Positions 10,544 to 24,180 of a stretch of DNA of 32,168 nt are shown piece by piece. The notes below the pieces were generated by a model. It saw nothing but the letters and a program-made list of their open reading frames with translations, was not told the DNA's origin and searched no databases. Location of the stretch: positions 1 to 32,168 of the forward strand of contig REES01000111.1 in the NCBI GenBank assembly GCA_007694935.1, given 5' to 3'. How positions within the stretch are numbered: the stretch's first letter is position 1; each line of letters starts with the position of its first letter. Origin of the DNA: Rhodospirillales bacterium. GTDB lineage: Bacteria > Pseudomonadota > Alphaproteobacteria > Rhodospirillales > Defluviicoccaceae. The position numbers were made by a program, and so were the translations under genes.

Positions 10544-12670
10544 TCAGCCCGGCTCGCGACGGACCAGCAGCACGAACGAGCGTGGCTCGACGGGATAGGC
10601 GCTGTCGTCGTCGTAATCGCCGTTGGCTGCGAACCCGTCGTCGTTGCTGGTGTCAAACACCAGCGACCAGCCATTGCCCACCTCGATCGCCGGGAGGGTC
10701 CAGTCGAGGCCTTTGTGGTGGGCGTTGAGGATGATCAGGAAGGTCTGGTCCGGCTGCGGCTCGCCCTGCGCCGTCAGAAAGTATTCGCCGGCTTCGCCCC
10801 GCAGCAGACAGCCGAGGAACGAGCCTTCGGCGGCATCCCAGTCCTCGTCCTGCATCTCGCTGCCGTCGGGCTTCAGCCACATGATGTCCTGGATTTCGGT
10901 GCCGGGGATGAAGCGGCGGTGGAAGAAGCGGTCGCGGTGGAACACGATGTGCTCGTAACAGAGGCGGATCAGGTCCCGGGTGAACTGGAGGAAGCCGGCG
11001 TCGCGTTCGACCTGGTCCCAGTCGATCCAACTGATCTCGTTGTCCTGGCAGTAGGGGTTGTTGTTACCCCCCTGGGTCTGCCCGAACTCGTCGCCAGCCA
11101 GGATCATCGGCAAGCCCTGGGACAGCAGCAGCATCGCCAGCATGTTGCGGCGCTGGCGGTCGCGCAGCTTGAGCACCTCAGGGTCATCGGTCGGCCCCTC
11201 GACGCCGCAGTTCCAGCTTTCGTTGCTGTCGGTGCCGTCGCGGTTGTCCTCGCCGTTGGCCTCGTTGTGCTTGTCGTTGTAGGCGACCAAGTCGGCCAGC
11301 GTGAAGCCGTCGTGGGCGGTAATGAAGTTCACGGAGGCCCACGGCCGGCGGCCGTGGGTATCGAACAGGTCGCTGGAGCCGGTGATGCGGGTGGCGAGGT
11401 CGCCCATTAAGCCGCCGTCGCCCTTCCAGAACCGGCGCACGGTATCGCGGTAGCGGTCGTTCCATTCGGCCCAGCCGGCCGGGAAGCCGCCGAGGCGGTA
11501 GCCGCCGTCGCCGACGTCCCACGGCTCCGCGATCAGCTTGACACGCGTCAGCACCGGGTCCTGCCGGCAGGCATCGAGGAAGCCGCTATGGTTGTCGAAG
11601 TGGCCGTCCTCCTCCCGGGCGAGGGTGGTCGCCAAGTCGAAGCGGAACCCGTCCACGTGCATTTCCTCGACCCAGTAGCGCAGGGAATCCATCACCAATT
11701 GAAGAACCCGCGGGTGGCGCAGGTCAAAGGCGTTGCCGCATCCGGTGAAGTCCATGTAATAACGCCGGTTGTCGGGCACGAGGTGGTAATAGGATGCGTT
11801 GTCGATGCCCCGGAACGACAGGGTCGGCCCCATGTGGTTGCCCTCGGCCGTGTGGTTATAGACCACATCCAAGAGCACCTCGATGCCGGCATCATGCATG
11901 GTTCGGACAAACGATTTGAATTCGTCGAGGCCGCCGTTGGAGAGATAAGTCGGATGGGGAGCAAAGTAGCCGAGCGTATTGTAGCCCCAGTAGTTGGCAA
12001 GTCCCTGGTCCACCAAGTGGCGGTCCTGCAGGAAGGTGTGTACCGGAAGCAACTCGATCGCGGTGATCCCGAGACTTTTGATGTAGTCGACCACCGCGGG
12101 CACGGCGAGACCGGCAAAGGTGCCGCGGTGTTTCTCCGGCACCGCCGGGTGGCGCATGGTGAAGCCGCGGGGATGCATCTCATAGATGATGCTTTGGTGC
12201 CATTCGGTGCGCGGCGGGGTGTCCCCCGACCAGTCGAACGCCGCCGGGTCGACCACCCGGCACTTCGGCATCCAGCGGGCATTGTTGCGGCGGTCGAAGC
12301 CGAGATCGGCCTGCTTGCCGCCGACCCGGTAGCCGAAGTGGGCATCGTGCCAGACCAGGTCCCCGACGATCGCCTTGGCATAAGGGTCGAGCAGCAGCTT
12401 GTTGGCATTGAACCGATGGCCGTGGGCCGGGTCGTAAGGCCCATGGACGCGGTAGCCGTAGAGCTGGCCCGGCTTGGCATCGGGCAGGTAGGTGTGCCAG
12501 ACCTCGTCCGTGTACTCCGGCAGGCGGATACGATGGATTTCCCGCCGGCCGTTGCGGTCGAACAGGCAGAGCTCGACCTTCTCGGCGTTCTCCGAGAACA
12601 AGGCGAAGTTGACGCCGTGGCCATCCCAGGTGGCGCCCAGCGGATAGGGCTTTCCGGGCCATACGCGCAT
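10544..12670 (-). CDS. glgX: Glycogen debranching enzyme GlgX (GH13)
   Basis: This 708-residue enzyme hydrolyses alpha-1,6 branches of short limit chains in the glucan. The N-terminal CBM48-like module begins at once (RVWPGKPYPLGATWDG). The GH13 barrel follows with NHTAEG (region II), DGFRFDLATTLARE (nucleophile Asp345), LIAEPWDVG (acid Glu382) and FITAHDGFTLADL (Asp454). The NGEDNRDGTDSNESWNCG block is typical of GlgX/isoamylase-like enzymes. I place the start at 12670 rather than at the in-frame ATG 12685: GGGAG lies 8 nt before 12670, no ribosome site precedes 12685, and the family starts MRVWPG. It is the last gene of the glg/tre cluster, 133 bp after glgB, so it may be partly independent. 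Ends are intact. Confidence 0.95.
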   Translation of the reverse strand: MRVWPGKPYPLGATWDGHGVNFALFSENAEKVELCLFDRNGRREIHRIRLPEYTDEVWHTYLPDAKPGQLYGYRVHGPYDPAHGHRFNANKLLLDPYAKAIVGDLVWHDAHFGYRVGGKQADLGFDRRNNARWMPKCRVVDPAAFDWSGDTPPRTEWHQSIIYEMHPRGFTMRHPAVPEKHRGTFAGLAVPAVVDYIKSLGITAIELLPVHTFLQDRHLVDQGLANYWGYNTLGYFAPHPTYLSNGGLDEFKSFVRTMHDAGIEVLLDVVYNHTAEGNHMGPTLSFRGIDNASYYHLVPDNRRYYMDFTGCGNAFDLRHPRVLQLVMDSLRYWVEEMHVDGFRFDLATTLAREEDGHFDNHSGFLDACRQDPVLTRVKLIAEPWDVGDGGYRLGGFPAGWAEWNDRYRDTVRRFWKGDGGLMGDLATRITGSSDLFDTHGRRPWASVNFITAHDGFTLADLVAYNDKHNEANGEDNRDGTDSNESWNCGVEGPTDDPEVLKLRDRQRRNMLAMLLLSQGLPMILAGDEFGQTQGGNNNPYCQDNEISWIDWDQVERDAGFLQFTRDLIRLCYEHIVFHRDRFFHRRFIPGTEIQDIMWLKPDGSEMQDEDWDAAEGSFLGCLLRGEAGEYFLTAQGEPQPDQTFLIILNAHHKGLDWTLPAIEVGNGWSLVFDTSNDDGFAANGDYDDDSAYPVEPRSFVLLVRREPG

Positions 12671-12779
12671 CACCAAGGCTCCCATTTGTTTGCGTGACGG
12701 GGCGTGCCAAGCTCGCGAGATCAGGCCGCGGTTGGCTTCCCTCGGAACAGAGTTGGCGTCGGATGCACTCCCCGACGGA

Positions 12780-12803: not shown

Positions 12804-15005
12804 CTATTCCGGCAGCAGAATCACTGCCGCCAGCGGCGGCAGCACCAGATCGATGGAATGCTCGCGGCCGTGGCAGGCGATGGGCTTGGTCATCACCGCA
12901 CCGGCGTTGCCGACGTCGCTGCCGCCGTAGAGGGCGGAATCCGTGTTGAGGCGTTCCAGATACCGTCCAGCGCGCGGCACGCCGATCCGATAGCTCTGCC
13001 GGATCACCGGGGTGAAGTTGCAGACCACGACGGCGAAATCGGCGGGATCCTTGCCCTTGCGCAGGTACGAGATCACGCTGGACTCGACGTCGGTGCAGTC
13101 GATCCATTCGAACCCGTCCGGTTCGCAATCGTGCTCATGCAGGGCGCGCTCGCCGCGGTAGAGGGTGTTGAGATCGCGCACCAACCGTTGCATGCCCTGG
13201 TGGCTGGGATCATCCAGCAGGTGCCAGTCCAGGCTGGAGTTGTGGTCCCACTCCCGCTCCTGAGCGAATTCGCAGCCCATGAACAACAGCTTCTTGCCGG
13301 GGTGGGTGAACATGTAAGCGTAGTAGACGCGCAGATTTGCGAAGCGTTGCCAGCGGTCACCGGGCATTTTGCGGATCAGCGATCCCTTGCCGTGCACCAC
13401 CTCATCATGGGACAGCGGCAGCACGAAGTTCTCGCTGAATGCATAGAGGATTGCGAAGGTCAGGCGGTCATGCACGTACTTGCGGAACACCGGATCCCGG
13501 CTCATGTAGGCCAGGGTATCGTTCATCCACCCCATGTTCCACTTGTAGCCGAACCCGAGGCCACCAAGGTAGGTGGGGCGGGAGACCATCGGCCAGGAGG
13601 TGGATTCCTCGGCAATCGTGGCGGTATCGGGCTGGTGTTCGTACAGCACCTCGTTCATCCGCCGGAGGAACCCGATCGCCTCCAGGTTCTCGTTGCCGCC
13701 GTAGGCGTTGGGGACCCACTCACCGGCGGGCCGGCTGTAATCCAGGTAGAGCATCGAGGCGACAGCATCCACCCGGAGTGCGTCGATGTGGTACTCTTCC
13801 AGCCAGAACAGCGCGTTGTTCAACAAGTAATCGGCCACCTCGTAACGGCCGTAGTTGTAGATCAGGGTGCCCCAGTCCTTGTGCCGGCCCTGGCGGGGAT
13901 CGGCATGCTCGTACAGGTTCGTCCCGTCGAAGTTGCCAAGGCCGTGGGCATCCGTCGGGAAATGCCCCGGCACCCAGTCGGCGATCACGCCGATGCCGGC
14001 GAGATGGCACCGATCGACGAAATCACGGAACTCATCCGGGCGGCCGAAGCGGCTGGTGGGTGCGAACAGGCCGATCGGCTGATAGCCCCATGACCCGTCG
14101 AACGGGTGTTCGCTGATCGGCAGCAGCTCGATGTGAGTGAAACCCATGTCCTTGACGTAGGGGATCAGGGTCTCGGCCAGCTCGGGATAGGTGAGGTAGC
14201 TGTTGCCGGCATCCACGTTGCGCCGCCACGAGCCCAGATGCACCTCGTAGATCGACACCGGCGCATCGCGGTCGATGGCCGCACCCCGCTGCTTCATCCA
14301 CTTGTTGTCGTGCCAGCGGAAGCGCTCGATATCGGTGACGATACCGGCGGTTCCCGGCGCCTGCTCGCAGAAAAACGCGAAGGGATCGAGCTTGAGCGGC
14401 AGCAGGTCACCCTTCTTGGTCATGACCGAGTACTTGTACAGGGTGCCTTCCTGCACGCCGGGCACGAACAGCTCCCACACCCCGCATTCGACCCTGAAGC
14501 GCATGGGGTGGCGCCGCTCGTCCCAGTTGTTGAAGTCGCCCACGACGCTGACCCGCCCGGCCCCGGGCGCCCAGACCGCGAAGCCGACGCCGGCAACGCC
14601 GTCCATGGTCATGATGTGGGCGCCGAGCTTTTCGTCCAGGCGGAGGTGCTTGCCTTCGGCGATCAGGTAGACGTCGAGTTCGCCGAGAAACGGGGGAAAC
14701 CGGTACGGGTCTTCCACTTCCTGCTCGCCCGCCGCGGTTTCGATGCGAAAGCGGTAGGGGAAACGCTGCTGCGACCGGCTCACCGGTCCGGCGAACAGGC
14801 CCGCTTCATGGAGCTTGGGCAGCTCGGCGATGACCTTGCCGTTGCGCAGGTCGACCACATGAACCCGCTGCGCCAGCGGAAGAAACGCCCGGATCACCAG
14901 TCCCTGGCCCTTTTCCGCGAGATGCGGCCCAAGGAACGAAAACGGATCCGGATGCCGGGCCGAGACGATCCGATCGACGTTCTGGGTCAGTTGCGGAATG
15001 GCCAT
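12804..15005 (-). CDS. glgB: 1,4-alpha-glucan branching enzyme GlgB
   Basis: A 733-residue GH13 enzyme that cuts alpha-1,4 chains and rejoins them as alpha-1,6 branches. It has two N-terminal beta modules (about 20-110 and 125-220, the second a CBM48 with [17 protein letters not shown]), then the catalytic barrel and a C-terminal beta domain. The active-site set is [18 protein letters not shown] (nucleophile Asp413), ATIAEEST (acid Glu466) and [12 protein letters not shown] (Asp534). Length and domain order match the E. coli-type long GlgB. The start is supported by AGGAAG 8 nt upstream. It sits between treS and glgX on one strand. In GlgE-pathway organisms GlgB branches the linear maltose-derived chains made by GlgE. 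No defects are visible. Confidence 0.96.
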
Positions 15006-15166: not shown

Positions 15167-18445
<3,279 letters not shown>

Positions 18446-18474
18446 GGTACTCTCCCTGTGGTTTCTTGATCATT

Positions 18475-20901
18475 TTACCAACCGACATCCCCAATCCGCG
18501 TGATGCGGAAAATTTCGCATGGGTTCACGTACGGGTCCAACCGGATCCAGTGCTTGGCGCCTTGCCATTCCAGACGCCGGAATGAAAACAGCTCCTCGGC
18601 AATGAATCGGTCCCGCGGCCCCAGCCCCATCTCTTCCAGGGGAAAGCTTACGAAGCCGTCATTCGCGACAAACGGATCGAGATTGACCGCGATAAACAGC
18701 ATGTTCCGGCGATCCGGGGTCATCTTCCCGTAGAAGAGTATATTGTCACTGGTCGACGGATAGAATCGAAGGTTATCGAGCTCATGCAGGGCCGGGTTGT
18801 CGCGGCGGATCTGGTTGATGCGCGTAATGTAGTCCTTGATGTTCCCCGGCTGATCCCAATCCCAGACCTTGTATTCATACTTTTCGGAATTCAGATACTC
18901 TTCCTTGCCCGGGATCGGGGTCGCTTCGCACAGCTCGAAGCCGTTGTACATGCCATAGACGCTGGACAGCGTCGCCGCCAGCACCAGGCGAATCTGGTGC
19001 GCCGGCCGTCCGCCGGTCTGCAGATAGGGCGGGTTGATATCCGGCGTATTGGTAAAGAAGTTCGGCCGCAGGTACTCTTTGACATCGGTCTGAGTCAACT
19101 CGGTCAGATATTCGGTGAGTTCCTGCTTGCCGTGCCGCCAAGTGAAATATGTGTACGACTGGCCGAAGCCGATCTTGGCCATCATCTTCAGCATCGGCGG
19201 GCGGGTGAAAGCCTCGGCCAGGAAAATCACGTCCGGATGTTTTTCCTGTACCTCTCGGATCAACCACTCCCAGAATGGCACCGGCTTGGTATGGGGGTTG
19301 TCGACCCGGAAGATCTTCACCCCTTGGTCGACCCAAAAGTTGACTACAAACAACAACTCTTCCCAAAGCGACTGCCAGTCAGTGCAGTAAAAGTCGACGT
19401 TGACGATGTCCTGGTATTTCTTTGGAGGATTTTCGGCATACTTGATGGAGCCGTCGGCACGGAACAGGAACCACTCAGGATGGTCCTTGATCCAAGGATG
19501 GTCCGGGGAGCATTGCACGGCGAAATCCAACGCCACTTCCATCCCCTGGGCATGGCAGGCGGCCACGAACCGGCGGAAGTCCTCCAAGGTGCCGAGCTCG
19601 GGATGGATCGCCGTGTGCCCCCCTTCCGGCCCCCCGATGGCGTACGGGCTACCCGGATCGTCCGGCCCGGCATTGAGGGTGTTGTTGCGCCCCTTACGGA
19701 AGGTGCGGCCGATGGGATGGATCGGCACGAAGTAGACCACATCAAAGCCCATCCGCCGCACTTCGGGCAGCCGGGCCTCGCAGTCGGCAAAGGTGGCGCT
19801 GCGGCCCGGTATCTGACCCTGGGAGCGGGGGAACATCTCGTACCAGGCGGCGTAGCGGGCCTGAAGGCGGTCGACCATCACCTCCAGTTCCTTGTCATAG
19901 CGGATGGCGGTCGACCGGTCGGGCCAGCGCGCCATCATCGCCCGAACGTCCTGGCCCAGCAGCAGGGATGCCCGCGCCCCATCATCCAGGGCCTTGAACG
20001 CGTCCAGGACCGCCTGCAGCCGCTTGGCATCGTCGCCTTGCGCCCGGGCGGCCGCCTCCTCCACCAGTTCGCGCCCTTCCACCAGTTCCAGGTGCACGTT
20101 CTGACCGGCACCCAGCTTCTTTTCGACCTCATCGCACCAGGAGGCGAACAGATCCGTCCACGCCTCGACGGTGAACAGATAGCGGGCGTTCTCGTATAGA
20201 GCGATGCTGCCGGCCCATTCGGCGAGGCCGAAATTGACCTCCCGCATCGGCGACTCGCGCCACTGGCTCTCGCTGATCCGGCGGTAGAGGATCACGGCCG
20301 AGAGCTTGTCATGGCCTTCGCGAAAGATCTCCGCGGTGACGTGCAGGGTGTCGCCCACCTCCCGCTTCACGGGATAGCGGCCACAGTTGACCTGGGGCTG
20401 GACGTTCTGGATGACGATCGAACGGCTGCGCGCCTTTTCGGCCAGCGGCAGGAACAACCGATGGGCGCGGCCCCGCGCCGATTCGTCCTTGTGGTGCCGG
20501 TGGGGTGCCGCATCGTCATCGGCAGCCGGCTGCGAGGGCGTCGCCGGGGGTGATGCGGCTTCGTCCTTGGGTGGCATCGCCGTCCCGGCGACGGACGGCT
20601 TCGGGGGCGTCGCAGGATCGGTGGCCGCCTGTGTCGACGGCGGCGCCTTCTCCACTGCCGAAGGGGCGTCGGGCTTGGCGGCAACGGTCGGCCCTTGCGG
20701 GGACGGGGGAACGCCCGGAGCACCCGCCTGGCGGGGCGCGGGAGCCGCCGGGCCCTTCGCAGCCGTCGTGGCCGCCGTCGGCGCATCACCACCCGGCTTC
20801 TTGGCGCCGGCGTCCGACGCCGACGGACCTTGCGTCCCAGGATCGGACTTCGTTGGATCAGCCGGTCCCGGATTGCCCTTTCCAGAATCCTTTACCGTCA
20901 T
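18475..20901 (-). CDS. glgE: Alpha-1,4-glucan:maltose-1-phosphate maltosyltransferase GlgE with long disordered N-terminal tail
   Basis: An 808-residue GH13 transferase that adds maltose units from alpha-maltose-1-phosphate to the non-reducing end of alpha-1,4-glucans. The GlgE core starts around residue 160 (IVIQNVQPQVNCGRYPVKRE). It includes FVPIHPIGRTFRKGRNN (391-407), FRVDNPHTKP (nucleophile Asp534), FLAEAFTRPPM (acid Glu563) and a typical C-terminal beta domain. Residues 1 to about 140 are an unusual extension made almost wholly of Pro, Ala, Thr, Ser, Gly, Asp and Lys, ending in HRHHKDE. Typical stand-alone GlgE is about 650-700 residues, so this tail is extra. Start 20901 has a good GGGAGGGG. 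Base composition falls in the 3' half (28 G+C of 60 at 18841-18900). It lies 47 bp after the GH13 gene and 29 bp before treS. Confidence 0.93.
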   Translation of the reverse strand: MTVKDSGKGNPGPADPTKSDPGTQGPSASDAGAKKPGGDAPTAATTAAKGPAAPAPRQAGAPGVPPSPQGPTVAAKPDAPSAVEKAPPSTQAATDPATPPKPSVAGTAMPPKDEAASPPATPSQPAADDDAAPHRHHKDESARGRAHRLFLPLAEKARSRSIVIQNVQPQVNCGRYPVKREVGDTLHVTAEIFREGHDKLSAVILYRRISESQWRESPMREVNFGLAEWAGSIALYENARYLFTVEAWTDLFASWCDEVEKKLGAGQNVHLELVEGRELVEEAAARAQGDDAKRLQAVLDAFKALDDGARASLLLGQDVRAMMARWPDRSTAIRYDKELEVMVDRLQARYAAWYEMFPRSQGQIPGRSATFADCEARLPEVRRMGFDVVYFVPIHPIGRTFRKGRNNTLNAGPDDPGSPYAIGGPEGGHTAIHPELGTLEDFRRFVAACHAQGMEVALDFAVQCSPDHPWIKDHPEWFLFRADGSIKYAENPPKKYQDIVNVDFYCTDWQSLWEELLFVVNFWVDQGVKIFRVDNPHTKPVPFWEWLIREVQEKHPDVIFLAEAFTRPPMLKMMAKIGFGQSYTYFTWRHGKQELTEYLTELTQTDVKEYLRPNFFTNTPDINPPYLQTGGRPAHQIRLVLAATLSSVYGMYNGFELCEATPIPGKEEYLNSEKYEYKVWDWDQPGNIKDYITRINQIRRDNPALHELDNLRFYPSTSDNILFYGKMTPDRRNMLFIAVNLDPFVANDGFVSFPLEEMGLGPRDRFIAEELFSFRRLEWQGAKHWIRLDPYVNPCEIFRITRIGDVGW

Positions 20902-20948
20902 CAGCCCCTCCCGGTTTCGTTGTCAGGCGCGCGCCGTCCCGAGGCGCG

Positions 20949-22256
20949 TCAGCGTGCGAACACTCTTACCTCTCCCGGCGCCAATGTCACCTCCTTACCG
21001 GACGGAATCGGCTCACCCTTGTGTCCCGGAGTGAGTTCGCGTCCGCCGTGGATATCGCCGTCGAGCCCATGGAGGTGCACGGTAACGCCATTCCACCGGT
21101 CGGGGTTGATCAGGGTCACCGCCCAGTCGCCGCCGGTGTCGCTGCGCCGGACCAAGCAGACCGCCCGGTCGCCATCCAGCCGGACATGACGCTGGGGACC
21201 TTCCTCGTTCAGCACCGGCACCGATGCCTTCATCGCATTCACCTCGGCGATGAAGTCGGTCAGGTCGAACGCCGGGGTCTCCCAGTCGTCGGGAGTCGTC
21301 TTGACGACATGCAGCTTCTTCCGGAAGCCGTATTCGTAGCCCATCGGCATCATCACCCCCGTGGAGAAGGCGGCCGCAAAGACGTAGGTCTGACGGTACG
21401 CCCGCTCCACCACCTTGGGATCGTTGAGCCCGTGCTGGGCCAGTTCGGTGGCGAGGCGTTCGGTGTCATGAGTCTCCGGGAAGGAGACCGAGGGGGCGAT
21501 GGAGCGGAACTTCTCGTATTGTTCCAGCAGCCAGTCGGACCGGAAGTCCCACCACTTGGCGCTGTTCATCAGGCAATCGAACCCGGCCGACCGAAGCTGC
21601 TCCACCTGTTCCAGCAGGGCGCCCAGGCTTTCGGCCATGAATACGGTGTCGTCGAAATCCTTGCGGATCGCCTCGAACAGCGTCCGCCACACCGCGTTCG
21701 GCACCTTGTAGGCCGCATCGCAGCGGAAGCCGCGCACACCGAGGCCGGCATAGTACCGGACGACCTTGACGAAGTAGTCGATGATCTCCTGACGTTCGGG
21801 ACGATCGCGGAAGTCGATCTCCGCGAGGTCATACCAGACCGTCTTCTTCGACGTGTCGGCCGGGTCGATGGCATAGGGATTGGCCACTGAGCCGTCGGGG
21901 TTGCGCACGAACCAGTTGGCGTGATGCTCGGTCATCGGCGAGTCGATGGCGGTATGATTGATGACCAGGTCCATCATCACCATCAGGTTGCGCTCGTCAC
22001 AGGCCTTGACGAAGCGCTTGATCAGATCGTCGGTGGAGCGCCGCGACTTGCCGCGAAAGACGGGGTTGAGCCGATAATAGTCCTTGACGGCATAGAGGCT
22101 TCCCGATTCCCCCACGGCATGAAAGGGGTTTACGAACACGGTGTTGAACCCCATGCCCTGGATGCGGTCGAGGTGCTTCTGCCACTCATCGATGGAACCG
22201 GCCAGAAGCGGAAACAGGTTGTAGATGCGAAGCCCCTCCGCGGGTGTCGTACTCAT
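20949..22256 (-). CDS. Stand-alone GH13 alpha-amylase-like protein of the glgE cluster
   Basis: A 435-residue GH13 protein with no signal peptide, so cytosolic. It starts directly at the barrel (LRIYNLFPLLAGSIDEWQKH). The four regions are visible: MDLVINHTAIDSP (region I), GVRGFRCDAAYKVP (nucleophile Asp180), TVFMAESLGA (acid Glu209) and PETHDTERLA (Asp264). A short C-terminal beta domain ends in GEVRVFAR. It lacks the CBM48 modules of GlgB and GlgX. In many Proteobacteria, as I recall, a domain like this is fused to the N terminus of GlgE in a protein of about 1100 residues; here it is a separate gene just upstream of glgE. The substrate is unknown, but a role on the alpha-glucan or its short oligosaccharides is likely. 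GGGGAGGA precedes the ATG; glgM ends 84 bp upstream. Confidence 0.85.
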   Translation of the reverse strand: MSTTPAEGLRIYNLFPLLAGSIDEWQKHLDRIQGMGFNTVFVNPFHAVGESGSLYAVKDYYRLNPVFRGKSRRSTDDLIKRFVKACDERNLMVMMDLVINHTAIDSPMTEHHANWFVRNPDGSVANPYAIDPADTSKKTVWYDLAEIDFRDRPERQEIIDYFVKVVRYYAGLGVRGFRCDAAYKVPNAVWRTLFEAIRKDFDDTVFMAESLGALLEQVEQLRSAGFDCLMNSAKWWDFRSDWLLEQYEKFRSIAPSVSFPETHDTERLATELAQHGLNDPKVVERAYRQTYVFAAAFSTGVMMPMGYEYGFRKKLHVVKTTPDDWETPAFDLTDFIAEVNAMKASVPVLNEEGPQRHVRLDGDRAVCLVRRSDTGGDWAVTLINPDRWNGVTVHLHGLDGDIHGGRELTPGHKGEPIPSGKEVTLAPGEVRVFAR

Positions 22257-22340
22257 TGCGGTCCTCCCCTCTGGATCATTCCCCTGAACGTCGCCCCTGC
22301 CGGTCCGATGCGGCGTCGGCGCATGGCGTGCCGTCGACCC

Positions 22341-23558
22341 TCAGTTGGTTGGCCTCGGCACCAGCGACCGATACAGATCTAACGTTTGCTGAGCGATTTT
22401 GTCCCATCCGAACTGCGCCAACACCCGGCGCCGCCCGGCTTCGCCCATCCGATGACACAGTTCGGTGTCGCGGCCCAACCGATTGATCGCGGCGGCGAGC
22501 CCGGCGGCCAGGCCTTCCGGATCGGCCGGGTCGTGGGGCGGCGACGAAGACAACCCTGCCTCCACCAGAAAGCCCGTTTCGCCATCGGCGACCACCTCGG
22601 GAATGCCGCCGACGGCGGTTGCGACCACCGGCGTGCCGCAGGCCATGGCTTCCAGGTTGATGATCCCGAACGGCTCGTAAATCGAGGGGCAGCAGAACAC
22701 CGCGGCATGGGAGTACAGCGCGACGGTGGTGCGCCGGCTGACCATCTCCGGTATCCAGACGACGCCGGGACGCCGGGCGCGCAGGTCGTCCACCATGCTT
22801 TCCAGTTCCGCCTGAAGCGACGGCGTATCGGATTCGCCGGCGCACAGCACGATCTGGATGGCCGGATCGATGAACTCGACGGCGCGAAGCAGGTAGTAGA
22901 GACCCTTCTGCCGGGTCATCCGGCCGACGAACAGGACGTAGGGCGCGTCAGGGTCAATGCCGAGCGGACGCAGCACGTCGGGCCGATTGACCGGTTTGTA
23001 CTCCTCGGTGTCGATGCCGTTGAGGATCACGTGCACCCGGTCGGCGGGGACTTGGTAGAGCCGCAGCACGTCGTTGCGGGTGCTGGTGGAGACCGCGATC
23101 ACGGCATCAGCCATCTCGATCGCCGTCCGCTCCACCCAGGTGGAGAGATCGTAGCCACGGCCGATCTGCTCCCGCTTCCAGGGTCGCAACGGTTCCAGGG
23201 AATGGGTGGTCAGCACCAGTGGCGTGCCATAAAGGTGTTTGGCCAGGATGCCGCCGAACTGGGCATACCAAGTGTGGCAGTGGACGACGTCGGCGTCGAT
23301 CCCCTGGCCGTTGAAGGCGAGGCAGGTCGCCAGCGCGCGCAAGGGGGAAACGAACGGCACCGGGCAGCCAGCGAACTGTGCCGCCTCGATCTTGGTGCCG
23401 CGCACGGTGATGCCGCCTTCGACCGAGGCCTGGTCGTGAAAGCTCCGGACCTCGACGGAAGCGAGCTTGGCGAGTTCCCGCGACAGGTATTCCACATGTA
23501 CCCCCGCACCGCCGTAGATGTGCGGCGGGTACTCGTTGGTCATCAGCAGGACACGCAT
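22341..23558 (-). CDS. glgM: GT4 glycosyltransferase, GlgM-like alpha-maltose-1-phosphate synthase (GT4 'glycogen synthase')
   Basis: A 405-residue GT-B enzyme. The N-terminal half has NEYPPHIYGGAGVHV (8-22), HCHTWY (93-98) and LTTHSLEPLRPWK (116-128). The C-terminal half has FVGRMTRQKG (210-219, ADP-sugar contacting Arg/Lys) and the EX7E motif of GT4 from Glu295 to Glu303 (EPFGIINLE). Wording and length closely follow the actinobacterial enzyme (Rv1212c type), first called GlgA and later shown to make maltose-1-phosphate from ADP-glucose and glucose-1-phosphate. It does not look like the ~480-residue GT5 GlgA of E. coli. Since glgE and treS-mak follow, M1P synthase is the most likely role; automatic pipelines will probably call it glycogen synthase. 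It is the first gene of the cluster. GGGAG lies 7 nt before the ATG. Confidence 0.88.
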   Translation of the reverse strand: MRVLLMTNEYPPHIYGGAGVHVEYLSRELAKLASVEVRSFHDQASVEGGITVRGTKIEAAQFAGCPVPFVSPLRALATCLAFNGQGIDADVVHCHTWYAQFGGILAKHLYGTPLVLTTHSLEPLRPWKREQIGRGYDLSTWVERTAIEMADAVIAVSTSTRNDVLRLYQVPADRVHVILNGIDTEEYKPVNRPDVLRPLGIDPDAPYVLFVGRMTRQKGLYYLLRAVEFIDPAIQIVLCAGESDTPSLQAELESMVDDLRARRPGVVWIPEMVSRRTTVALYSHAAVFCCPSIYEPFGIINLEAMACGTPVVATAVGGIPEVVADGETGFLVEAGLSSSPPHDPADPEGLAAGLAAAINRLGRDTELCHRMGEAGRRRVLAQFGWDKIAQQTLDLYRSLVPRPTN

Positions 23559-23588
23559 CTCAGGGCTCCCGGGCGAGGTTCGACCGTG

Positions 23589-23616
23589 TTCTTACAACCT
23601 GCCGCGCGTTCGTCAA
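23589..23616 (-). promoter_or_regulatory. Candidate promoter for the glgM-GH13-glgE-treS cluster
   Basis: On the minus strand, TTGACG (23616-23611) and TAAGAA (23594-23589) are separated by 16 bp, just upstream of glgM. The start would give a leader of about 24 nt that still includes the GGGAG ribosome site at 23570-23566. It is the only clear hexamer pair I found ahead of the roughly 13-kb cluster. Confidence 0.35.
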
Positions 23617-23766
23617 TCAGTAACGCCGGCCGGCCGAGGGTTTGCCCGGACGAGGCCACCTGGACAACCTAGGCGCGAGGCGCTACCCTGAACGCAACCC
23701 GTTTCGGTCGGCGCCGCCGCGTTCCGGACATCGGGCAGCCGTTCGGCGCCGGGACACCCGAACACG

Positions 23767-24180
23767 ATGAAGGGACTGACCGACATGGTGGCCCTGGTGG
23801 TTGGCTTGGTCCTCGGGCTCGCACTTGTCGCCGGCGACGCCGCGGCGGAAGCCGTGAAGGCTGCGCAGCCCCCCTCCTGCACGCGAGAAACGCTCGGGAT
23901 CAGCGCCTGCTTCGGGCCCCGGTTGTGCGCCTGCATTCATGACCGTGGCGGCGCCGCCAGCGGCGTGCCGGCCGGCTATCGCTGGGATTGCGGCATCCTG
24001 CGTCCGCGTTGTGATCCTGCCGGACCGCCCGCGACGTTGGACCCGTTCCGCGGCCCCTTTCCGCACGCGGTGGGGATCGACCGCTCCGACCGCCGTGTCA
24101 TCGTGGACCAGGACACCCGCACCATTATCCGCGTGCCGGATCCCAGTGGCGGGGCCGATCCACCGGCAGGCGGCGATTAG
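23767..24180 (+). CDS. Small secreted Cys-rich protein of unknown function
   Basis: A 137-residue protein whose family I do not recognise. Residues 8-23 are hydrophobic, and an AAA site at 25-27 predicts Sec export and cleavage before Glu28. The mature part has six cysteines (38, 48, 54, 56, 75, 82) grouped in its first half. The even number and periplasmic destination suggest disulfide bonds. The second half is Pro-rich and contains DRSDRRVIVDQDTRTIIRV. A second in-frame Met at residue 7 (23785) could also start a good signal peptide. It stands between the divergent glgM and the codirectional SRAP gene, 86 bp upstream of the latter. Codon bias and the leader argue that it is real. Confidence 0.65.
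   Translation: MKGLTDMVALVVGLVLGLALVAGDAAAEAVKAAQPPSCTRETLGISACFGPRLCACIHDRGGAASGVPAGYRWDCGILRPRCDPAGPPATLDPFRGPFPHAVGIDRSDRRVIVDQDTRTIIRVPDPSGGADPPAGGD

Follow-up and report, generated by a model that had tools for sequence, protein, structure and literature searches.

The window, the whole stretch of DNA that was analyzed, spans 32,168 nucleotides of contig REES01000111.1 (assembly GCA_007694935.1) from a Rhodospirillales bacterium of the Defluviicoccaceae. The gene of interest (20949..22256, minus strand, ATG start) encodes a stand-alone GH13 protein of 435 residues, which we call GH13N and which is homologous to the domain at the N terminus of long GlgE proteins. It lies in a same-strand run with the order glgM/GT4, GH13N, glgE, treS-pep2, glgB, and glgX. 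The run is composed of a glgM/glgA-type GT4 glycosyltransferase gene (22341..23558, minus strand; TIGR02149 at 514.7 bits, cut-off 302.4), GH13N, the maltosyltransferase gene glgE (18475..20901, minus strand; P0005, 808 residues; PF11896 at 3.2e-55 and PF21702 at 4.2e-16), a treS-pep2 fusion encoding a trehalose synthase-maltokinase (15167..18445, minus strand; TIGR02456 and TIGR02457 above cut-off), the branching enzyme gene glgB (12804..15005, minus strand; NF003811 and TIGR01515 above cut-off), and the debranching enzyme gene glgX (10544..12685, minus strand; TIGR02100 above cut-off). The earlier note, which named no strand, had read a 435-residue GH13 protein directly upstream of glgE, and this is borne out, with glgE beginning 47 bp downstream. 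The gaps before GH13N and treS are 84 bp and 29 bp, respectively. The GH13N ATG is preceded by AGGGGAGGA, a Shine-Dalgarno-like stretch, and a similar stretch precedes the start of glgE. The same-strand run, short gaps, and Shine-Dalgarno-like stretches are the arrangement expected of an operon, and we predict that the genes form one. A simple sigma-70 scan of positions 18300-24100 returned no promoter-like site, and shuffled sequence gives 1.0.

Two features of the neighboring genes deserve mention in their own right. The GlgE protein carries an N-terminal extension of about 155 residues ahead of its N/S domain (20437-20901, minus strand) that is of low complexity and rich in proline, alanine, and lysine. 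The first gene of this GlgE run, in a proteobacterium, is the GlgM/GlgA-type GT4 gene (22341-23558, minus strand); the accessible part of a 2024 review states that bacteria other than actinomycetes make maltose-1-phosphate via TreS-Pep2 only (PMC11046441), and glgM is listed in the accessible part of a Defluviicoccus genome paper (PMC9041414).

GH13N matches the Pfam models Alpha-amylase (4.6e-14) and hDGE_amylase (1.7e-18), the latter confined to residues 5-112; the GlgE N/S domain PF11896 is not among its Pfam matches at E 0.01, and none of the NCBIfam models scores above cut-off. Its AlphaFold model (pLDDT 94.6) has a (β/α)8 GH13 barrel and a C-domain, and the chains listed by both fold searches with this model are GH13 proteins. 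Among solved structures, GlgE cores come closest in fold (Z 39.1, rmsd 2.7, 401 residues, 20% identity), followed by the GH13_48 chains 3dhu (Z 37.8) and 4gkl (Z 35.8). An AlphaFold model of the fused protein, in which a homologous domain precedes GlgE, has a pTM of 0.58, and a PDB search with it puts GlgE on top.

Because hDGE_amylase is the best Pfam match, we considered whether GH13N is a 4-α-glucanotransferase like the first half of the eukaryotic-type glycogen debranching enzyme (GDE), which would make acceptors for GlgE, MalQ, or TreY by moving short chains from one glucan to another. The same model matches a MalQ-fused homolog (5e-17), and PDB profile matches to GDE chains reach about 1e-17. 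However, the match covers only profile positions 4-113 of 439, such that the first approximately 110 residues of GH13N match the GDE glucanotransferase domain (PF14701) and the remaining profile is unmatched. Moreover, the partner amylo-1,6-glucosidase domain PF06202 has no matches in this genome, which is 97.6% complete, in a search for which 7 of 14 controls were positive. GDE is also absent among the 50 chains listed in the structural search, an absence that excludes nothing. A GDE-type debranching pair is therefore rejected, given the missing PF06202 match and a profile match that does not extend beyond the first quarter, and we keep the glucanotransferase reaction as a weaker rival that we regard as unlikely.

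Homologs of GH13N are found both as separate genes and as fused domains. A scan of GTDB species confirmed at least 572 relatives, the best 80 of which were analyzed, a sample that is biased to close relatives. These 80 homologs come from several phyla at 46-92% identity, which rules out that GH13N is a chance open reading frame. Among the best 80 of at least 572 loci, the homolog is fused ahead of GlgE in 32 (48-58% identity) and is a separate gene directly upstream of GlgE in 25; 17 have no GlgE in the locus DNA and 6 could not be judged. When the 17 GlgE-free loci were rescanned at E 1e-5, the GlgE matches were GH13N itself and nothing else. In the same set of 80, GlgM is the gene directly upstream at 10 of 25 separate, adjacent loci but at 0 of 32 fused loci; restricted to loci with sufficient upstream DNA, the counts are 10 of 24 and 0 of 30. 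Two Defluviicoccus MAGs are among the closest of these 80 loci (61-63% identity), a genus described as glycogen-accumulating in the accessible part of its genome paper (PMC9041414). At G028:C62:16627-18156 (and L063, on a contig of equal length), the GlgE adjoining a stand-alone GH13N has an internal stop and a split match, indicating either that the gene is broken or that the assembly is faulty.

Nearer to the source genome, 17 of 60 genomes have a GH13N match at E <= 1e-10. Three of them, all from the same order (G020, G044, and G053), encode the matching domain (50-54% identity) and GlgE in a single frame, although the G053 contig stops within the fused gene. A tblastn search matched 124 plasmid records, the top five of which are Azospirillum genes annotated as "maltotransferase domain-containing protein" (48-50% identity). 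One Azospirillum plasmid gene, read in its entirety, encodes 1106 residues with GlgE as the C-terminal part, which bears out the earlier note on proteobacterial proteins of about 1100 residues with a GH13 domain before GlgE. The N-domain of such long proteins in Azospirillum, Dongia, and Marinobacter is 48-53% identical to GH13N, falls in the same clade, and has the same order before GlgE, but it is covalently fused to GlgE, whereas GH13N is a separate gene; the Azospirillum N-domain and GH13N share an intact catalytic triad. A profile built from 57 GH13N domains matches all 27 of the N-domains excised from long GlgE proteins (22 alphaproteobacterial and 5 named sequences), with E values in this set from 1.9e-5 to 2.8e-206, the weakest matches being partial.

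Our phylogenetic analyses place GH13N and the long-GlgE N-domains in one clade, with support of 100/100 in a careful maximum-likelihood tree and 99 in a quick tree of 63 rows. The careful tree contains 45 of the 63 rows, including 9 of 18 degenerate N-domains (those that have lost triad residues, discussed below); the 18 rows left out are long-branched ones, namely a GH13_48-like row, an amylase, GlgB, and one degenerate domain, and rows thought redundant, among them two further degenerate domains. Inside the clade, the degenerate N-domains (9 rows, 100/99) separate from the intact domains, both fused and separate (15 rows, 88/84). In the careful tree the GlgE catalytic cores form the sister group of this clade (99/96), and the clade stands apart from GH13_48-like, MalA, TreS, TreZ, and GlgX rows. 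In the 63-row quick tree, the fork uniting GlgE, GH13N, and one long-branched GH13_48-like row has support of 84 without a clear order among the three. Given that GH13_38, GH13_45, GH13_20, and other subfamilies are absent from the tree, "sister of GlgE" is valid for this sample only. Since the tree and the nearest fold both point to the GlgE core, a long GlgE with the fused domain resembles two related barrels in tandem.

The same tree bears on the simplest alternative, that GH13N is an ordinary, unrelated α-amylase that lies beside glgE by chance. The GH13 fold, the generic Alpha-amylase Pfam match, and the nearness in fold of GH13_48 enzymes would be consistent with it; however, GH13N joins the long-GlgE N-domains rather than an unrelated subfamily, and in the best 80 of at least 572 loci the homolog is fused to GlgE in 32 and directly upstream of it in 25. 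The tree and the fusions contradict this candidate, which we hold to be very improbable. The earlier note had also proposed that GH13N may be the N-terminal domain of long GlgE in detached form. The homology holds, as the fusions, the profile, and the tree agree; the word "detached" goes further than the tree does, since at least five changes between the fused and separate states are needed on a 71-row tree rooted on a long branch, from which 13 Azospirillum-group rows were pruned beforehand. With this number of changes and an unsure root, both fission and repeated fusion are possible. Three distant taxa that have GH13N and GlgE, a Marinobacter (L045), a Rubrobacter (L046), and an Eremiobacterota MAG (L044), are nested among the proteobacterial rows; this nesting suggests lateral transfer or mis-binned contigs.

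To describe the active site, residue conservation was read from an alignment of 57 GH13N domains, including stand-alone and GlgE-free ones, and subsite columns were compared between 21 GH13N and 18 GlgE rows. The three carboxylates named in the earlier note are D180, the catalytic nucleophile (GFRCDAAYKVP; codon 21717..21719, minus strand), E209, the acid/base (codon 21630..21632, minus strand), and D264, the third carboxylate (ETHDT; codon 21465..21467, minus strand). They align with the corresponding catalytic columns of GH13, and each is invariant in 57 of 57 domains, confirming that identification. H263 is likewise present in 57 of 57, in a column that is proline in the GlgE of this locus and histidine in the Rhizobium GlgE that was compared, and a cysteine precedes the nucleophile (C179) in 50 of 57.

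The phosphate site distinguishes GH13N from GlgE. The phosphate ligands of GlgE are N352, K355, Y357, and N395 in Streptomyces coelicolor numbering, according to the accessible part of PMC4526890, and every one of the 18 GlgE rows has all four. The GH13N rows have threonine for K355, tryptophan for Y357, and alanine for N395, each in 21 of 21 (the last being A181, codon 21714..21716, minus strand, where the GlgE rows have asparagine in 18 of 18). The N352 column, in a gap-rich stretch, is serine in 16, asparagine in 3 (including N126 of the GH13N studied here), and alanine in 2 of the 21 rows, so that this GH13N has lost the phosphate site at three of four positions, not four. The loss of three ligands predicts that GH13N should not use maltose-1-phosphate and makes it unlikely that the protein is a second, maltose-1-phosphate-using GlgE, a candidate we reject. 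Further differences from the GlgE core (GH13_3) are the lack of the N/S domain and, in the column of GlgE Q324, the usual GH13 histidine (H101; 20 of 21 rows and 56 of 57 in the larger alignment).

In common with the GlgE core, GH13N retains the triad, a −2-subsite aspartate, and an acceptor-site tryptophan. D143 (codon 21828..21830, minus strand; invariant 57/57) occupies the column of GlgE D359, a −2-subsite residue according to the accessible part of PMC4526890, and aligns with Asp135 of AmyB. The WWD motif, W235-W236 (codons 21549..21554, minus strand; WW in 57/57), places W235 in the column of the GlgE acceptor-site residue W448, for whose alanine mutant the accessible part of PMC5076824 reports a kcat/Km of 94 per M per s, against 19000 per M per s without the mutation. 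The other GlgE −2 residues are changed: the loop containing K264 and N268 (RKGxNN) is absent, K534 is valine in 21 of 21, and Y535 is valine in 20 of 21. Since K264, N268, K534, and Y535 are not kept, D143 is the one residue of this set on which a maltosyl preference would depend.

The GH13_48 maltogenic amylases, AmyB (4gkl) and the Lactobacillus plantarum enzyme (3dhu), offer a second point of comparison. They share with GH13N the cysteine before the nucleophile, the equivalents of His103 and Asp135, and the stand-alone size. Unlike GH13_48, GH13N does not close CSR-VII with the hallmark GQ (both the consensus and the protein studied here have GY), lacks the RKG stretch, and has WW; it also stands apart from the GH13_48-like rows in the tree. 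The accessible text of PMC11239784 states that this GQ is preserved in 85.5% of GH13_48, that Asp135 belongs to the non-reducing-end site of AmyB, the Thermotoga neapolitana enzyme, that AmyB releases maltose, and that the L. plantarum GH13_48 enzyme is exo-acting from the non-reducing end. It also states that this aspartate is not conserved outside GH13_48; contrary to that statement, our alignments show its equivalent in both GlgE and GH13N.

Homology to the fused N-domain, an intact triad, the loss of most of the GlgE phosphate pocket, and the gene context are shown by computation. Beyond these, we infer a maltosyl specificity, an exo mode of action, and a possible complex with GlgE. We hypothesize, with about an even chance of being right, that GH13N is a GH13 enzyme, the sister paralog of the GlgE core, that acts on maltooligosaccharides or glucan ends and most likely releases or transfers maltosyl units. 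It would use a retaining GH13 mechanism on α-1,4-linked maltooligosaccharides or the non-reducing ends of glucan, and would take off or transfer maltosyl units, a prediction based on the kept aspartate of the −2/non-reducing-end site (GlgE D359, AmyB Asp135) and the kept acceptor-side tryptophan. Released maltose could be re-phosphorylated to maltose-1-phosphate by the Pep2 domain of TreS-Pep2 and re-added by GlgE, and chains trimmed by GH13N could serve as GlgE acceptors, such that the pair could both trim and extend chains.

The contexts in which homologs occur without an adjacent GlgE extend this picture. In a Desulfobacca genome (L089:3670-7302), a GH13N domain is fused behind MalQ (GH77) in a single ORF of 1211 residues; a second Desulfobacca MAG has a like 1211-residue ORF (L080:62-3694), the domains having been checked in L089 only. 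A MalQ ORF lies directly upstream of the homolog in L095, L102, and L106, about 0.8 kb upstream in L098, and about 1.7 kb upstream in L107, and in L102, L098, and L107 this ORF continues into a GH13 domain, a putative TreY. In L067, a MalQ gene followed by TreS-Pep2 lies directly downstream. A GlgC-type gene adjoins the homolog in L054, with GlgX beyond it, and a GlgA-type gene lies two ORFs upstream in L100. Two alphaproteobacterial genomes (G186 and G334; loci L214 and L215) have the order GH13N, TreZ, TreY, with GlgE on another contig, and L214 has a KaiC-like gene just upstream.

GlgE, MalQ, TreY, and TreZ all handle maltooligosaccharides. Because homologs also adjoin MalQ, are fused to it, or precede TreZ-TreY, we read GH13N as a general maltooligosaccharide module, and homologs in loci or in a genome without GlgE indicate that a role dedicated to GlgE is not general. 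The adjacency and fusion to MalQ also count in favor of the glucanotransferase reading discussed above. At the level of genomes, 11 of 397 Pseudomonadota have a GH13N match at E <= 1e-40, a threshold too strict for most degenerate GH13N domains, and 68 have GlgE; GlgE is present in 10 of the 11, with G772 as the exception. In a class sample, GlgE is present in all 13 genomes where GH13N is matched at E <= 1e-50, but nine of these have the two fused, which makes the co-occurrence weak evidence.

Many N-domains of long GlgE proteins have lost the catalytic residues. Among 387 alphaproteobacterial genomes at least 90% complete, the source genome included, 46 have GlgE and 23 have GlgE frames of at least 1000 residues; in the remaining frame of the 23 (G209/L207) no GlgE motif was located, and in the 22 that were read the N-domain triad is intact in 6, has clearly lost at least one residue in 14, and is ambiguous in 2 (L197 and L212, which were kept out of the degenerate set). 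The residue assignments for the weakest N-domains, such as L200, L205, and L210, come from poor alignments. Of five named long GlgE proteins, that of Azospirillum has an intact triad and those of Caballeronia, Burkholderia pyrrocinia, and two Rhizobium are degenerate. In Rhizobium the nucleophile aspartate is replaced by leucine, the acid/base glutamate by tryptophan, and HD by PF; Caballeronia has the latter two changes, and B. pyrrocinia has only a glycine for the glutamate. These Rhizobium, Burkholderia, and Caballeronia N-domains resemble GH13N in clade and position, are 24-29% identical to it among the matches listed (40 of 124 plasmid rows), and have the WWD motif in all four read, but their triad residues are lost, whereas those of GH13N are intact. 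The proposal in the earlier note that the two activities work on the same substrate is accordingly not general, given the degenerate alphaproteobacterial N-domains and the GlgE-free loci.

These losses raise the possibility that GH13N serves GlgE mostly as a glucan-binding or structural partner without catalysis, its intact triad being residual. Fused N-domains that have lost at least one triad residue persist, and their pattern of retention is uneven: across 18 clearly degenerate domains, columns that never vary in intact ones (52 in all) are kept at a mean of 39% and the three triad residues in 4, 1, and 2 of 18, yet S232 is kept in 18, W242 in 17, W236 in 16, and W235 in 15, with the WW motif in 15. 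The kept tryptophan cluster suggests a glucan-binding or contact surface. However, R178, G173, and G212 (16 of 18 each) and D96 and N384 (15 of 18 each) are also kept, so the pattern may be partly structural, and an invariant triad in all 57 GH13N domains, stand-alone and GlgE-free ones among them, is unexpected for a dispensable active site. We consider a chiefly non-catalytic role for GH13N quite unlikely; in the rhizobial and Burkholderia-type long GlgE proteins read here, in contrast, the domain has become a pseudoenzyme, perhaps a glucan-binding module.

Returning to the catalytic reading, we offer a broader and more tentative proposal, one that we hold somewhat short of an even chance: GH13N would represent an undescribed GH13 subfamily, sister of the GlgE core, in which an α-glucan "trimmer" works in tandem, back to back, with GlgE as the "extender", the two being sister barrels. 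The trimmer would occur as a separate protein or fused to GlgE or MalQ, and in rhizobial and Burkholderia-type lineages it would have become an inactive pseudoenzyme that grips glucan and may either hold the polymer for GlgE or determine its chain length. The fused architecture as such is already on record, as genes are annotated "maltotransferase domain-containing". Titles and the openings of abstracts, and the accessible part of the review PMC11046441, yielded nothing on the additional domain that long GlgE proteins carry, and a 2011 paper on GlgE distribution may mention it. The stand-alone copy with its intact triad could be purified and assayed by itself, and comparison of GH13N with fused-intact and fused-dead copies would part a catalytic from a glucan-binding role. 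These observations suggest that glycogen-storing bacteria, relatives of Defluviicoccus among them, trim or prime the glycogen of the GlgE pathway while it is being made.

Elsewhere, the source genome encodes MalQ, a second GlgX, two more GlgB genes, TreZ, TreY, and a match to a GT5-type synthase. It also has another GH13 protein, in a frame of 745 residues (G000:C144:21100-23334; L158:5101-7335), for which no NCBIfam model matched at 1e-30.
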